The position numbers and the translations under genes were made by a program. Positions 2,252-11,536 of a DNA stretch of 11,657 bases are shown one piece after another (the first letter of the stretch is position 1; each line of letters begins with the position of its first letter). The DNA comes from Myxococcales bacterium (GTDB lineage: Bacteria > Myxococcota_A > Polyangia > Fen-1088). The stretch covers positions 8,866 through 20,522 of the forward strand of contig PMZX01000270.1 in the NCBI GenBank assembly GCA_003170035.1. The letters run 5' to 3'. The notes beneath the pieces were generated by a model. That model saw only the letters and a program-made list of their open reading frames with translations, searched no databases and had not been told where the DNA came from.

Positions 2252-2489
2252 GTGGACTTCGAGCTGACCGACGAACAGAAAAGCTTTCGCGATCGGGTGC
2301 GCCGGTTTGCCCGCGAGGAACTCGCGCCTCACGCCGGCACCATCGATCGCGCGTGGGCGATTCCGGTCGAGCCGCCTGACCGACCAGGTGGTAGATGGCC
2401 ACTTCCGCGACGCCAAGCTCACCGAGGTCTACGAGGGCACGAGCGAGATCCAGCGACTGACCATTGCTTCCGCGCTGCTATCGGTTTAA
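2252..2489 (+). pseudogene. Acyl-CoA dehydrogenase remnant (internal deletion plus frameshift)
   Basis: Only the two ends of an acyl-CoA dehydrogenase remain. From the GTG at 2252 the frame reads [20 protein letters not shown] and continues [13 protein letters not shown], the normal N-terminus of these flavoproteins, which oxidise acyl-CoA thioesters in beta-oxidation. Homology fades after about base 2371. From about 2397, in the next frame (+1), the sequence reads [19 protein letters not shown] and ends ASALLSV at a TAA (2487-2489), the conserved family C-terminus. Intact members are about 380 residues, so roughly 310 codons, including the substrate and FAD domains and the catalytic Glu, are missing. 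The two ends are still easy to recognise, which suggests a fairly recent deletion; an assembly collapse is the alternative. GGAAGAGA at 2238-2245 could be the old ribosome-binding site. Confidence 0.85.
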
Positions 2490-2537
2490 GACCACAGTCG
2501 TTGTTCTCTCGAACCTTGCGACGCGGAGGGCCATGAG

Positions 2538-3221: not shown

Positions 3222-3249
3222 TTTTCTTGTAGCAAGATTTATGTATAAT
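3222..3249 (+). promoter_or_regulatory. Candidate promoter for the second lipoprotein gene
   Basis: A perfect TATAAT lies at 3244-3249. Sixteen bases upstream is only a weak, T-rich -35 candidate (TTTTCT, 3222-3227). Initiation would fall near 3256, about 6 nt before the ATG at 3262, giving an almost leaderless mRNA. The surrounding AT-rich patch (3200-3260) stands out from the GC-rich background. Confidence 0.5.
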
Positions 3250-3261
3250 ACATCACGAATC

Positions 3262-4068
3262 ATGCGATGTAAGAAATCCAAGGCGGTGTTTGTTCTATGC
3301 GCGCTGGTTTTCGCGTGCGCCTCTGAGCCGGAGACCAGAGGGTCGCGCTTGCCGAAACAGTCGCGCGTCCGGCAAAAGACTTCGGCACGTGCTGGGGTGG
3401 CCGGCGACGACCAGGGGATGGACATGCAGTTGTCCATCGGCGTGCTCGACGAGCGCACGGTGGACAGGGCCATGGCGCCGCATGTGCCCGCCATGGTTGA
3501 CTGCTTCGAACGCGCCGGGGATGCACGCCGGTACCTGTCAGGCCTGGTCGTTCTTCGTTTCGTTGTCGAAGCCAGCGGAGCGGTTTCTGACATTCACGTC
3601 ATCAAGAACGAGTTAGGCAACTATCCTGTCGAGCGCTGCCTGGTTGGTGCTGGCATGCGTATCGTGTTCCCTCGACCCGAAGGCAACTGCAGAACTGATT
3701 TCGAGTATTCCCTGCGTTTCCGATCGACGGGCGAGATGCGCGTGCTGAATTGGAGGGGCGACGACGTGGCAGTTCGTGTGGCCTCGACGAGCGACTTCGC
3801 CGCCTGCGGAGCGTTGGGGCCGCAGAGTGTGGAAGCCATCGCCTACGTCGAACCAGCAGGCACAATCGGCTCGGTGGGCTTCGTGTCGCAAGGGCCCATC
3901 AATCCTGCCGCGGCCTCCTGTGCCGAGGGACAGATGTACAAGCTGAGGGTCACCGACGGCCGTCCCAATGTGGTGCTGCGCACGGTGTTCCCGCTTGTCA
4001 TTGCCGCCCAGGGCACCAGCAGGGCTGACCTGTCGCACCGGTCAAGCAAGCGTTCCCGACATCACTGA
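3262..4068 (+). CDS. Lipoprotein with AgmX/PglI-like domain and unusual C-terminal extension
   Basis: A 268-residue predicted lipoprotein. The N-terminus MRCKKSKAVFVLCALVFAC is a signal peptide with a lipobox-like VFAC; Phe at -2 is uncommon but tolerated, and C19 would carry the lipid. Residues about 60-150 form an AgmX/PglI (TonB-C-like) domain: VLDERTVDRAMAPHVPAMVD, CFERAG, then LVVLRFVVEASGAVSDIHV and YPVERCLVGAGMRIVFPRPE. C81 and C126 match the conserved pair of the smaller lipoprotein upstream. About 115 further residues, with Cys but no recognised fold, end in a basic tail (HRSSKRSRHH). I prefer the ATG at 3262 over one at 3241 because TATAAT (3244-3249) would lie inside the longer version and the signal peptide is cleaner; neither start has a Shine-Dalgarno site. 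It converges on the next gene with only 24 bp between. Confidence 0.75.
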   Translation: MRCKKSKAVFVLCALVFACASEPETRGSRLPKQSRVRQKTSARAGVAGDDQGMDMQLSIGVLDERTVDRAMAPHVPAMVDCFERAGDARRYLSGLVVLRFVVEASGAVSDIHVIKNELGNYPVERCLVGAGMRIVFPRPEGNCRTDFEYSLRFRSTGEMRVLNWRGDDVAVRVASTSDFAACGALGPQSVEAIAYVEPAGTIGSVGFVSQGPINPAAASCAEGQMYKLRVTDGRPNVVLRTVFPLVIAAQGTSRADLSHRSSKRSRHH

Positions 4069-6181: not shown

Positions 6182-6451
6182 TCACCTGGCCCCGGGCACA
6201 GGAGGCGGAGGCGGTGGTGGCGGCGGCGGTGGGGGGGGCGGTGGCGGAGGCGGAGGCGGTGGAGGAGGCGGTGGTGGCGGCGGAGGTGGAGGAGGCGGCA
6301 GCGGCGGAGGAGGCGGCACAACTCGCGTGTCCGAGGCGGAAGTCGCGAGTGGCTGCTTCGCGATCGCCGTCTGTTTGGCTTTCTTTGCACAGCCGCCCGC
6401 CAAGGACGCCCCGAGGAGCAAGAGTAAGCAAATTCTGCGGCTGGTCGACAT
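6182..6451 (-). CDS. Small lipoprotein with a near-pure polyproline C-terminal half
   Basis: An 89-residue predicted lipoprotein. MSTSRRICLLLLLGASLAGGC is a textbook type II signal peptide with lipobox AGGC and lipidation at C21. A 24-residue basic and polar spacer (starting AKKAKQTAIAKQ) follows, then residues 46-84 are 38 prolines interrupted by a single Leu, and the protein ends VPGAR. All four proline codons are mixed through the run. I start at the ATG at 6451 because it gives the signal peptide; the frame stays open upstream, but that version would overlap the divergent giant gene and bury the signal. There is no clear Shine-Dalgarno site. A polyproline II rod tethered to a membrane by lipid is the natural structural reading; its function is unknown. 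The plus strand of this region would read polyglycine and has no sign of being a gene. Confidence 0.75.
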   Translation of the reverse strand: MSTSRRICLLLLLGASLAGGCAKKAKQTAIAKQPLATSASDTRVVPPPPPLPPPPPPPPPPPPPPPPPPPPPPPPPPPPPPPPPVPGAR

Positions 6452-6616: not shown

Positions 6617-6646
6617 TGAGCGAGGAACAAGCAGCGAGGCACACAC

Positions 6647-9600
6647 ATGAGGCGTCACGGATCAGTCAGACGCCTGACGGCAGGGACGCGCCGTCGGGCG
6701 AATCTTTTTGTTCAAGGGTGGGCGGTCTGCGCTCTGGCATGGACCACTGGCTGCAGTGTCGACACCGCGGTGAGCGCGCAGGACGCGCCGACGGGGGGCG
6801 TGTTGCCCGATGGGGGAGTGGTGCTACTGGCTGACAGTGGCCCTCTCGTGGTGCTGCCTGAGCCGCGCACGACGGATGGTGGCCTTTGTCAAGCGAAGAC
6901 CTGCAGTGCAGGCGCAACCCGGTTCTGCGGGGACATCGACAACTGCGGACAGACCTTGCATTGTGGCGCCTGTGCCGCCGGCAACCAGTGCAAGAACAAC
7001 ACTTGCGTCGCGGTGGGATCGACCACTTGCCTCAAGGGGTGTACGGTTGCGGGCGGGACATATTGCGGAGTGATCGGGGACGGATGCGGCGCGACGCTCG
7101 ACTGTGGGGCCGACTGTGCCGTGGGTTGGACCTGCGGCGTGGACCATATCTGCAAGGGCGGTCCCACTTGCCAGGCAGACACCTGCGTGGCGGCCTCGGG
7201 AGACCACTACTGCGGGAAGATCGGGGATGGCTGCGGCAGCACGCTCGACTGCGGGAATCCTTGTCCCACCGGATGGGATTGTGTGGAAAACCTCTGCGTG
7301 GGCTCGCCGATCGTCTGCCCACCGCTGGCTTGCGTGACCGCGAGTGGCGACCACTACTGCGGGACCATTGGCAATGGATGTGGCGGGACCCTCGAATGCG
7401 GAAACGACTGTCCGACGGGATGGACTTGCGAAGGGCACGTGTGCAAGGCGACGCCTCCCATCTGCACGCCGGTGACCTGCGCGACTGCCACCGGGGATCA
7501 CTACTGTGGGCCCATCGGGGACGGCTGTGGCGGCACGCTCGATTGCGGGGCTGACTGTCCCACGGGATGGACCTGCCTGAATTCCGTTTGCGTCGGCGGG
7601 CCTCCGGCGTGTACGCCGGCCACCTGCGACACGGCAGGCGGCGGACAGTACTGTGGCAAGGTCGGGGACGGCTGCGGCGGCACGTTGAACTGTCCGGCCG
7701 ACTGTCCACAGCCCGGATGGGTGTGCGAGGAGCACCTGTGCAAGGGCGGGGCAACCTGCCCGAAGATCACCTGCGCGACTGCGAGCGGGGACCACTACTG
7801 CGGGACTGTGGGCGATGGTTGCGGCGGGTCGCTGGCCTGCGGGAACGATTGCCCGGCCGGCTGGACCTGTGGGGCCGACCACATCTGCAAGGGAGGTCCA
7901 GGCGTTTGTGCCCATTTGACCTGTACGACCTCGAGTGGGGATCACTACTGCGGAACCGTGGGTGACGGTTGCGGCGGCACGCTGGAATGTGGGAACGACT
8001 GCCTGGCGGGATGGACCTGTGGAACCGACCACATCTGCAAAGGCGGCGTGGCGTGCGCACCGGCAACATGCGACGCGCCCAACGGCGACCACTACTGCGG
8101 AACGATCGGGGACAAGTGCGGTGGCACGCTCGACTGCGGCACGACTTGTCCCAAGGCCGGCTGGTTGTGCAAGAACAACATGTGCACAGGCGACCCTTCC
8201 TGCAAGCCCTTGACCTGTGTGGCGTCGAGCGCGGACAACTACTGCGGGGCGATCGGGGACGGCTGTGGCGGGACCCTCGATTGCGGCACCACCTGTCCCA
8301 AGGCCGGCTGGGTGTGCGACAACGGTCTGTGCAAGGCCGGGCCAACCGCTGGCTGCGTGCCGAGAACCTGCACAACGGCGTTCGGGGATCAGTATTGCGG
8401 TGACATCGGGGACGGGTGTGGATCCACGATTCACTGCGGAACCATCTGCGCAAAGACCGGATGGTCCTGCCAAGACAACCTCTGCAAGGCAGGGCCAACC
8501 GCTGGCTGCTCGCCGCTGGCCTGCATGACGGCGAACGGCGACCAGTATTGCGGTGACATCGGGGACGGGTGTGGATCGACAGTTCACTGTGGAACGACTT
8601 GCGCGAAGACCGGCTGGACCTGCCAGGACAATCTGTGCAAGGCGGGACCGACCGCTGGTTGCGCGCCCCTGACCTGCGCAACCGCCAGTGGCGACCAGTA
8701 CTGCGGAACCATCGGCGATGGCTGCGGCAACTCGCTGGCCTGCGGAACGACCTGCAGCAAGACCGGGTGGACTTGCCAGAACAATCTGTGCAAGGGTGGC
8801 CCAAGTTGCACGCCAGGTAACTGCAAGCCGACTTCCGGCGGTCAGTACTGCGGAACCATCGGCGACGGTTGCGGCAACTCTCTGGTTTGCAGCACCGATT
8901 GCTCGGCCGCGGGCAGCGGCTGGAGTTGCCAGAACAATCTGTGCAAAGGCGGCCCAAGTTGCGCCCCGCTCACTTGCGTGGCGTCGAGCGCGGACAACTA
9001 CTGTGGGTCGATCGGGGACGGCTGCGGCGGGACGCTCCCCTGCAGCACGACCTGCCCCAAGGCCGGGTGGGTGTGCGACCAGGGGCTGTGCAAGGCCGGG
9101 CCAGCCGCTGGCTGCGTGCCGCAGGCGTGTACCACTGCGGCCGGGGATCAATACTGCGGTGACATCGGCGACGGGTGTGGATCAACGGTTCACTGTGGAA
9201 CCACCTGCAGCAAGACCGGGTGGACCTGCCAAAGCAATCTGTGCAAGGCTGGGCCTACGGCCGGCTGTGTGCCGCTGACCTGCACGACGGCAAACGGCGA
9301 CCAGTACTGCGGCGACATCGGCGATGGCTGCGGCTCGACGCTACATTGCGGAACCGTGTGCACAAAGACCGGGTGGACCTGCCAGAGCAACCTGTGCAAG
9401 GCAGGGCCCACCGCTGGCTGCACGCCGCTCACCTGCACCACGGCCAGCGGCGACCAGTACTGCGGCACCATCGGCGACGGCTGCGGCAACTCGCTCGACT
9501 GCGGCACCACTTGCACGAAGAGCGGGTGGACCTGTCAGAGCAACCTGTGCAAGGGCGACCCGCCGGCTTGCACTCCACTGACCTGCAATCCGGCTTCGGG

Positions 9601-11536
9601 TGGCCGGTACTGCGGAACCATTGGCGATGGCTGCGGCCACTCGCTGGATTGCGGCACGGACTGCTCGGCCGCCGGCACCGGCTGGTTGTGCGGCAGCAAG
9701 AACTCGTGCGTGGGTGGGACGGGCTGTGTGCCCGTTACCTGCAACAACGCCAAGGGCGTGCAGCAGTACTGCGGCGGCGTGGGCGATGCTTGTGGTGCGA
9801 CCCTGAGCTGCCCGGCCACATGCGCGACCCCTGGCGTGCCCTGCGGTGCGATCACAGCCAATGTTTGCGAGCCCTGCGGCGGCCTGTGCCTGAATCGGGT
9901 TCGCTGCAGCGGTACGGCCACGACCAGCCTCAGCGGCACGGTGTACGACCCCGCCGGCTACAACCAGCTCTACAACGTGATCGTGTCCATCCCGAATGCG
10001 GCGCTGGACCCCATTCCCGCGGGTGTGAGCTGCACCTCTTGCGACGGCCAGGTATCGGGTCAGCCGATTGCCTCGGCGCTGACCGATGCCAATGGGCACT
10101 TTGTCCTCAACAACGTGCCCTGGGGTGTTGATTTCCCATTGGTCATGCAACTTGGCAAGTGGCGGCGCCAGATCACGATTTCGAGGTCGCTGGTCACCAA
10201 CCAGTGTGCTGACAATCCCATCACCGAGACCAAGCCGGTGACCCTGTTGCGCCTGCCCAGGAACATCCACACTGACTACAACGACCCCAGCGGTCCATTT
10301 AACAACGGCCAATACCTGAGCATACCCAAGATCGCCATAACGGCTGGGCGTGCTCGAAATCCCGACAACACCACTGACGAGCGTCTACAATGCCTGCTTC
10401 GCCGGATAGGGGTCGATGCATCTGAATTCACCCTGCCCAGCGGTTCGGGCTCGGTGCAGTTGTACAATCAGTCGAAGAGCCCAGACACGTGCAGCACAAT
10501 ATCGGGGATCGCGGGAACATTCCCTGACGCGACAACGAGTCTTTGGGACAAACAGGCTGACCTGAACAAGTACGACGTGATCCTACTCAACTGTGGCGGC
10601 ACCCAGGTCGACCCCACCACAACCGGGGGGCAGGGCTTTATTCCGAATCCTGCCGCGGCCAATCTAATGAAGGCCTATCTTGATGCCGGTGGCCGCGTGT
10701 TCGCCGAACACTTTCACTGGGCGTGGATCAAGTCGTTCACGGGCTCGCCGAGCTATCCTTCCGTCTTCGGCGACGTTGCAACCTGGAACACAGGCACCGG
10801 CTTCATCGGAACGACTGCAAGGGACACCCTCATCGATCAATCATTCCCAAAGGGCATCGCGTTTGCTAGCTGGCTGTCAAGCGTCGGCGCATCCACCATC
10901 CCAGGGCACCTGACACTGTCAAGCAGCGCGAAATTCACCGCCATCGACCAGATCCATCCGCCTTCACAGCGGTGGATCTACGAACCTGTAAGCGCAGGGG
11001 CTCCGAATGGGGCGGCACAATATACCCACTACTTCTCTTTCAACACTCCGATCAACACGCAGGCGGACGCGGGCACGGCAACCCAGTGCGGGAAGTTTGT
11101 CTACACTGCTTTGCACGTGACCGATGCGGCAACGACTGATTTCCCTGGAGATCCAGACACCAGCGCAGGCAACGTGTTCCCTGGCTGCTGTTACGCTCGC
11201 ACGGGCCTCTCACCGCAGGAGAAGGCCCTGGAGTTCATGATCTTCGACCTCTCGGGGTGCGTGACTCCGATTGACCTGCCGCCCACGCCGCCGCCGGCTG
11301 CCAGTGCCACGCCTCCTGCGGCTGCGCCGCCGCCCGCCGCGGCGCCGCCGCCTCCTCCGCCGCCACCACCCGCTGCACCGCCGCCGGCTGCCGCACCGCC
11401 AACTGTCTCTGCTCCGCCGCCACCTCCGCCGCCACCGGCTGCCGTGCCACCTGCCGCTTCGCCACCGCCGCCACCGCCGCCACCGCCGGCGCCACCGCCA
11501 GCGCTACCGCCGCCAGACAACCCGTTCAACCAGTAG
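6647..11536 (+). CDS. Giant secreted Cys-rich repeat protein with C-terminal alpha/beta domain and Pro-rich tail
   Basis: A 1629-residue exported protein; no gene name recognised. Order: signal sequence (about 18-36, ending WTTGC, perhaps a relaxed lipobox with C36); an acidic Gly/Asp/Pro linker (37-80); 20 tandem units with eight cysteines each (81-1076); a carboxypeptidase-regulatory-like beta domain (about 1095-1180, SGTVYDPAG to DANGHFVLNNVPWGVDFPL); an alpha/beta domain (about 1230-1540) with LQCLLRRIGVD, YDVILLNCGG (1309) and YLDAGGRVFAEHFHWAW (1342-1358), reminiscent of glutamine-amidotransferase-like folds; and a Pro/Ala tail (1545-1629) with runs of up to nine prolines. The start has GAGG 7 nt upstream. 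The cysteines imply oxidative folding outside the cytoplasm. Similar repeats occur in large myxobacterial surface proteins; the role may be adhesion or matrix binding, which is inference. A Tat-like TRRRANLF is too weak to rely on. Confidence 0.88.
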   Translation: MRRHGSVRRLTAGTRRRANLFVQGWAVCALAWTTGCSVDTAVSAQDAPTGGVLPDGGVVLLADSGPLVVLPEPRTTDGGLCQAKTCSAGATRFCGDIDNCGQTLHCGACAAGNQCKNNTCVAVGSTTCLKGCTVAGGTYCGVIGDGCGATLDCGADCAVGWTCGVDHICKGGPTCQADTCVAASGDHYCGKIGDGCGSTLDCGNPCPTGWDCVENLCVGSPIVCPPLACVTASGDHYCGTIGNGCGGTLECGNDCPTGWTCEGHVCKATPPICTPVTCATATGDHYCGPIGDGCGGTLDCGADCPTGWTCLNSVCVGGPPACTPATCDTAGGGQYCGKVGDGCGGTLNCPADCPQPGWVCEEHLCKGGATCPKITCATASGDHYCGTVGDGCGGSLACGNDCPAGWTCGADHICKGGPGVCAHLTCTTSSGDHYCGTVGDGCGGTLECGNDCLAGWTCGTDHICKGGVACAPATCDAPNGDHYCGTIGDKCGGTLDCGTTCPKAGWLCKNNMCTGDPSCKPLTCVASSADNYCGAIGDGCGGTLDCGTTCPKAGWVCDNGLCKAGPTAGCVPRTCTTAFGDQYCGDIGDGCGSTIHCGTICAKTGWSCQDNLCKAGPTAGCSPLACMTANGDQYCGDIGDGCGSTVHCGTTCAKTGWTCQDNLCKAGPTAGCAPLTCATASGDQYCGTIGDGCGNSLACGTTCSKTGWTCQNNLCKGGPSCTPGNCKPTSGGQYCGTIGDGCGNSLVCSTDCSAAGSGWSCQNNLCKGGPSCAPLTCVASSADNYCGSIGDGCGGTLPCSTTCPKAGWVCDQGLCKAGPAAGCVPQACTTAAGDQYCGDIGDGCGSTVHCGTTCSKTGWTCQSNLCKAGPTAGCVPLTCTTANGDQYCGDIGDGCGSTLHCGTVCTKTGWTCQSNLCKAGPTAGCTPLTCTTASGDQYCGTIGDGCGNSLDCGTTCTKSGWTCQSNLCKGDPPACTPLTCNPASGGRYCGTIGDGCGHSLDCGTDCSAAGTGWLCGSKNSCVGGTGCVPVTCNNAKGVQQYCGGVGDACGATLSCPATCATPGVPCGAITANVCEPCGGLCLNRVRCSGTATTSLSGTVYDPAGYNQLYNVIVSIPNAALDPIPAGVSCTSCDGQVSGQPIASALTDANGHFVLNNVPWGVDFPLVMQLGKWRRQITISRSLVTNQCADNPITETKPVTLLRLPRNIHTDYNDPSGPFNNGQYLSIPKIAITAGRARNPDNTTDERLQCLLRRIGVDASEFTLPSGSGSVQLYNQSKSPDTCSTISGIAGTFPDATTSLWDKQADLNKYDVILLNCGGTQVDPTTTGGQGFIPNPAAANLMKAYLDAGGRVFAEHFHWAWIKSFTGSPSYPSVFGDVATWNTGTGFIGTTARDTLIDQSFPKGIAFASWLSSVGASTIPGHLTLSSSAKFTAIDQIHPPSQRWIYEPVSAGAPNGAAQYTHYFSFNTPINTQADAGTATQCGKFVYTALHVTDAATTDFPGDPDTSAGNVFPGCCYARTGLSPQEKALEFMIFDLSGCVTPIDLPPTPPPAASATPPAAAPPPAAAPPPPPPPPPAAPPPAAAPPTVSAPPPPPPPPAAVPPAASPPPPPPPPPAPPPALPPPDNPFNQ
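8201..8959 (+). repeat. Five-unit block, copy A of a tandem super-repeat
   Basis: Five consecutive units (253 codons) that match, unit by unit and in the same order, the five units that follow. Diagnostic marks are VASSADNYCG in the first unit, GDIGDGCGST and an HCG in the second and third, GDGCGNSLACG in the fourth, and the longer CSAAGSGW form in the fifth. Tails of the first three units all read LCKAGPTAG. Confidence 0.85.
8960..9724 (+). repeat. Five-unit block, copy B of a tandem super-repeat
   Basis: Five units (255 codons) repeating copy A in the same order: VASSADNYCG, two HCG units, a GNSLDCG unit and a CSAAGTGW unit. Copy B is two codons longer because of single-residue additions at the ends of its fourth and fifth units. 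Both copies of the first unit share GTGGCGTCGAGCGCGGACAA; many of the remaining differences are at third codon positions. Confidence 0.85.

Follow-up and report, generated by a model that had tools for sequence, protein, structure and literature searches.

The window examined here, 11,657 nts of a Myxococcales bacterium contig (assembly GCA_003170035.1, contig PMZX01000270.1, forward strand, positions 8,866 to 20,522), carries an open reading frame (ORF) at 6647-11536 (+) encoding a protein of 1629 aa with 175 cysteines (10.7% of residues). Twenty consecutive units of exactly eight cysteines each occupy residues 81-1074 and are followed by a two-domain head. With limited confidence, we read the product as a surface lipoprotein in which a stalk of disulfide-locked units presents a probably glycan-binding head.

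A sequence-only reading of this gene had proposed 160 cysteines in 20 tandem units, capped by divergent first and last units and lacking the CC pair of hevein-type chitin-binding domains, and residue counts bear out all three points. The units account for 160 of the 175 cysteines, succeed each other with a pitch of 47-52 residues and most commonly show the spacing C-x4-C-x8-C-x6-C-x5-C-x3-C-x6-C-x4-C. The array with its linkers (residues 81-1078, 6887-9880, + strand as for all features of this gene) was delimited by the Cys pattern and by an AlphaFold2 model of units 11-13. Cys spacing deviates to 4,7,5,5,2,5,4 in the first unit (6887-7027) and to 4,9,6,5,3,6,7 in the last, unit 20 (9725-9880). 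No adjacent CC pair occurs in the 20 units, the sole CC of the protein (residues 1514-1515) being located inside the head. In the DNA, Tandem Repeats Finder sees part of the array (period 153, 8.0 copies, 71% matches).

The unit itself matched no family of Pfam or NCBIfam in the proteins scanned. When 48 three-unit segments were compared with Pfam at E up to 10, a search in which HMMER filters discard most weak matches, 14 families were matched, Hevein/Chitin_bind_1 not among them. NCBIfam gave no match for this protein (E up to 1) or for five relatives (E up to 10), and a PDB sequence search returned nothing but one chance-like row with an E of 0.51. The AlphaFold2 model of units 11-13, obtained with 48 segments as input, showed short strands (predicted local distance difference test, pLDDT, 89.3; predicted template modelling score, pTM, 0.60). 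Foldseek and VIA-align comparisons of the unit model brought up no solved structure resembling it, nor a good viral model. Thus the earlier statement that no characterised family could be named holds for Pfam, NCBIfam, PDB sequences and solved folds.

Among 3363 units from 246 proteins, the eight cysteines, a Gly after Cys3 (99%) and D-G-C-G around Cys4 were conserved. The sequence-only reading had also suggested conserved aromatics as ligand-binding positions. Their conservation was confirmed in this array, where 19 of the 20 units have Tyr before Cys3 and 18 have Trp before Cys7, but it did not extend to the whole set, in which 30% of units carry Tyr and 10% carry Trp at the same model positions. 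Judged by these frequencies, both aromatics are subfamily traits and not general ligand positions.

Joint losses of cysteines support disulfides inside each unit. Cys4 was substituted in 44 aligned units and Cys1 was missing in all 44; 43 of them look like one orthologous position near the array start, P0221 being a separate case. Similarly, the five units with a substituted Cys5 all lacked Cys2; they come from P0092 and four proteins resembling it, one of which (P0179) bears the name Archangium. From these losses we infer Cys1-Cys4 and Cys2-Cys5 bonds, a concrete prediction checkable by disulfide mapping; the support covers Cys1, 2, 4 and 5 of the eight. Hevein disulfides include Cys1-Cys4 and Cys2-Cys5, and hevein (ChtBD1) is likewise a small secreted 8-Cys module. 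However, the present unit has no CC pair, is otherwise spaced and found no hevein among profile or fold matches.

Sequence comparison further indicates that this array was lengthened by duplication of a five-unit block. Units 10-14 (8201-8959) and 15-19 (8960-9724) share 80.4% DNA identity across about 760 bases, and mean unit identity peaks at lag 5 among lags 1 to 11 (0.706; lag 1 = 0.696). In addition, both blocks find their counterparts in nearly the same set of units of a paralogue on contig C333 of this genome. For units 3-10, the order of best matches is kept, with few exceptions, in 7 of 11 compared sequences, but not in P0004, P0017, P0025 and L033. Together these results point to growth by one block, with the units of close relatives retaining positional identities.

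Two folded domains and a Pro/Ala tail had been proposed behind the array. The AlphaFold2 model of residues 1079-1545 agrees with the former (pLDDT 84.4, pTM 0.89), and the last 84 residues (1546-1629, 11282-11533) contain 49 Pro and 21 Ala. The first domain (residues about 1079-1203, 9881-10255) is predicted to be immunoglobulin (Ig)-like, of the CnaB/CarboxypepD_reg kind, from its Foldseek similarity to CnaB pilin domains and a weak match to PF13620 (CarboxypepD_reg), which scored 17 bits on this protein against a curated cut-off of 32.3 and was matched by 47 of 57 head members at E up to 0.1. Besides falling under the cut-off, the domain differs from that family by its own invariant Trp-Arg (GKWRR) and Cys.

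The second domain (residues about 1225-1541, 10319-11269) adopts in the model a ThuA-like fold, that of class I glutamine amidotransferases (GATases). A ThuA profile aligned with the head over 47 columns around L-x-x-YD ... GG-x-x-x-x-x-H, and the His of the ThuA stretch GGG-x-x-x-x-H falls on His1355. In contrast to this likeness, ThuA (PF06283) gave no Pfam match among the 57 head members at E up to 0.1, and the present domain carries four invariant Cys of its own and follows an Ig-like domain. Aligning the 57 heads revealed 30 invariant columns; Asp1310, Cys1316, His1355 (95%), His1490, Glu1525 and Lys1526 are invariant or nearly so. Three relatives (P0062, P0066 and P0074) have the head and 168-186 Cys without a match to the first unit profile, so that the head is also combined with Cys-rich repeats of other types. 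In P0062, the head is split ahead of its final conserved segment by a long Cys-rich stretch (residues about 557-1453), with profile matches to residues 150-570 and 1405-1472.

As to the tail, ORFs of the same genome on contigs C333, C240, C282, C481 and C164 likewise finish in Pro-rich stretches. A small lipoprotein-like ORF (6182-6451, −; MSTSRR...LAGGC), divergently transcribed and with a long poly-proline run at its end, adjoins the gene of the Pro/Ala-tailed protein.

At the other end, residues 1-36 (6647-6754) form a lipoprotein-type signal with a putative lipidated Cys36 (WTTGC-S), followed by a linker (residues 37-80, 6755-6886). TTGC passes a loose lipobox rule but not the strict one with L, V or I at −3; Thr at this position is unusual. 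Several close relatives carry WTAGCS at the putative lipidation site. Of 225 proteins that combine units and head, 191 passed the loose rule, compared with 681 of 4500 shuffled N-termini, and 104 contain a strict lipobox motif somewhere in the N-terminal stretch. The proposed export of the protein is thus supported.

The module is widespread in the phylum. A wide profile built from 29 diverse units found matches in 134 of 377 sampled Myxococcota genomes and a profile of this array's own units in 71, while one CGGGG-type array used as query matched 2744 proteins. The literature, as far as searched, contains no description of these unit proteins; the idea of an undescribed repeat module therefore stands in that sense, but the module is common and not specific to this gene. 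Of the 246 listed relatives with units, 244 also have the head; all units precede it in 90, flank it in 146 and are otherwise arranged in 8. One of them, P0212, combines 14 units with a full head profile under the UniRef name 'Tryptophan synthase alpha chain', probably an annotation error. In the genome studied here, long ORFs on seven contigs match the unit: units and head are joined on C327 (the present contig), C333, C468, C240 and C164, some of these ORFs being truncated, C282 has them in different frames on either side of a run of N, and in the C481 ORF no head was found. Among eight further genomes, seven contain units, and several unit ORFs there lack the head, such as the arrays L119 (8 units) and L144 (14 units). 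Other partners are RCC1 repeats (L130, L136), Big_2 together with a sub-threshold laminin-G match (L124) and a sub-threshold lamin tail (L125).

Two known systems offer comparisons. In SGBPlev (BT1761, PDB 8aa2 chain G), a lipoprotein of Bacteroides, levan is bound by a ThuA-like domain that points away from the cell (PMC7618045); identity to the present protein is 12% over the aligned part. By analogy, SGBPlev provides the best functional lead for the head, and the resemblance underlies our glycan-binding proposal. It differs in that it is described with two Ig-like domains and no Cys-rich array, where the present protein has 20 units, and belongs to a four-component sugar-uptake complex, none of which was seen near the present loci by neighbour clustering (SusC/D profiles were not searched). 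TraA of Myxococcus xanthus, also a myxobacterial protein, contains a Cys-rich repeat region that has been proposed to act as the stalk of a lectin-like domain (PMC3325183). However, the TraA repeat model (TIGR04201, Myxo_Cys_RPT, 22 positions) matched neither this protein (E up to 1) nor five relatives (E up to 10), its one match in this genome lying on contig C517 and not on C327. Similarly, PA14 and MYXO-CTERM, features of TraA-type receptors, were absent from the Pfam and NCBIfam hits of this protein at E up to 1. The proposed sorting tag of TraA is C-terminal, whereas the present lipoprotein-type signal is N-terminal. Cys-rich stalks with a binding head are thus a known kind, of which the present protein would be a variant; it belongs to a large family for which the libraries searched contain no model.

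In the reading that we favour, a lipidated N-terminus would anchor the protein in the outer membrane, the 20 small units, with disulfides closing every unit internally, would form a long stalk, and the Ig-like and ThuA-like head would be held at the far end, away from the cell, probably to bind carbohydrate (soil polysaccharide, or a prey or kin surface glycan). Stalk length would change through duplication of multi-unit blocks. Lipidation, surface exposure, stiffness and glycan binding are all properties that we infer. Internal disulfides, varied partner domains, mostly lipoprotein-type signals and block-wise change in number make the unit best read as stalk or spacer, and its union with quite different C-terminal domains fits such a role at least as well as that of a dedicated binding module. 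In the present protein, the signal precedes and the head follows the entire array. Alternatively, the units themselves could bind, as an adhesion or matrix module with Tyr and Trp directed to the ligand and the head secondary. The near-constancy of both aromatics in this array, the head-less arrays L119 and L144 and the many relatives with units on either side of the head speak for this, but the scarcity of Tyr and Trp among the 3363 units, and near-invariant residues that are Cys and Gly and so suggest a fold rather than a shared binding surface, make it rather improbable.

We also consider it unlikely that the head works at the surface as an enzyme of the ThuA/GATase-like superfamily, with sugars or peptides as substrates and the array serving only to position it. 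The (nearly) invariant polar residues listed above, among them the His1355 aligned with the ThuA His, would suit a catalytic site. However, class I GATases carry their nucleophile Cys directly after the strand to which GGRVFA would correspond, and the alignment of the 57 heads shows no conserved Cys there; the Pfam negative for ThuA also counts against an enzyme, as does a ThuA alignment confined to 47 columns, with other ThuA motifs outside the comparison. A structural envelope or spore-coat protein with no specific ligand would agree with the arrays without recognised head and with the lack of a conserved neighbour, yet the 30 invariant head columns exceed what a filler would need, and we regard this as very improbable. 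Even less credible is an exported metal sink of reduced cysteines: the Cys content would favour it by composition alone, whereas the protein is exported, Cys4 and Cys5 losses accompany those of Cys1 and Cys2 as disulfides would, and zinc-finger matches of unit segments in Pfam were sub-threshold only.

Several observations weigh against the stalk-and-head model. Units follow the head in 152 of the 244 relatives, where it is not simply at the tip; such rear arrays do not fit a simple stalk, and their role may be to stiffen or shield the other side, or to extend it. Of the listed head proteins, 28 of 272 have no unit, and L123, L129 and L146 contain a single unit, distant from the signal and amid Cys-rich repeats of other kinds. 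The pTM of only 0.60 for the three-unit model makes unit-to-unit geometry and stiffness tentative. A few units lose a single Cys, and in a few Cys1 is lost without Cys4. The loose lipobox rule was failed by 34 of the 225 relatives, in addition to the atypical Thr of this protein. There are enzymes among ThuA-fold domains, and likeness of fold does not establish function. Neighbour clustering (606 ORFs from 63 loci) gave no cluster in more than 12 loci and no recurrent sugar-uptake neighbour. Finally, the Pro/Ala tail has no explanation in this model.

A bolder proposal, possible though doubtful, is that the unit represents a new disulfide-rich fold serving as an all-purpose stalk of the Myxococcota outer surface, and that unit and Ig-ThuA-like head together define an undescribed class of receptors, with several paralogues per genome, for prey, kin or substrate glycans. 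The module occurs in over a third of the sampled genomes yet is unmatched in Pfam and NCBIfam in the proteins scanned. A profile model and a structure would allow annotation of a large protein set, as the matches to the CGGGG-type array illustrate, and would yield candidate surface receptors, testable as a class, in a phylum noted for its predators and for kin recognition.

The start codon is plausible, with a GAGG, a plausible ribosome-binding site, at 6636-6639, 7 nts upstream of the ATG. The contig (20522 bases) terminates where the window terminates, in an assembly of 540 contigs and 5.2 Mb with a completeness of 77%. Upstream, a gene for a vitamin B12-dependent ribonucleotide reductase is truncated by the window edge, leaving its C-terminal part (1-705, +; NF005122, under the full-length cut-off). 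ORF 2252-2536 (+) is recognised as an acyl-CoA dehydrogenase start over about 40 residues only, then continues with unmatched sequence and may be a gene remnant. The products of 2538-2984 and 3241-4068 (both +) each have an AgmX/PglI C-terminal domain (NF033768, above cut-off) and weaker matches to the gliding proteins GltG and GltJ.
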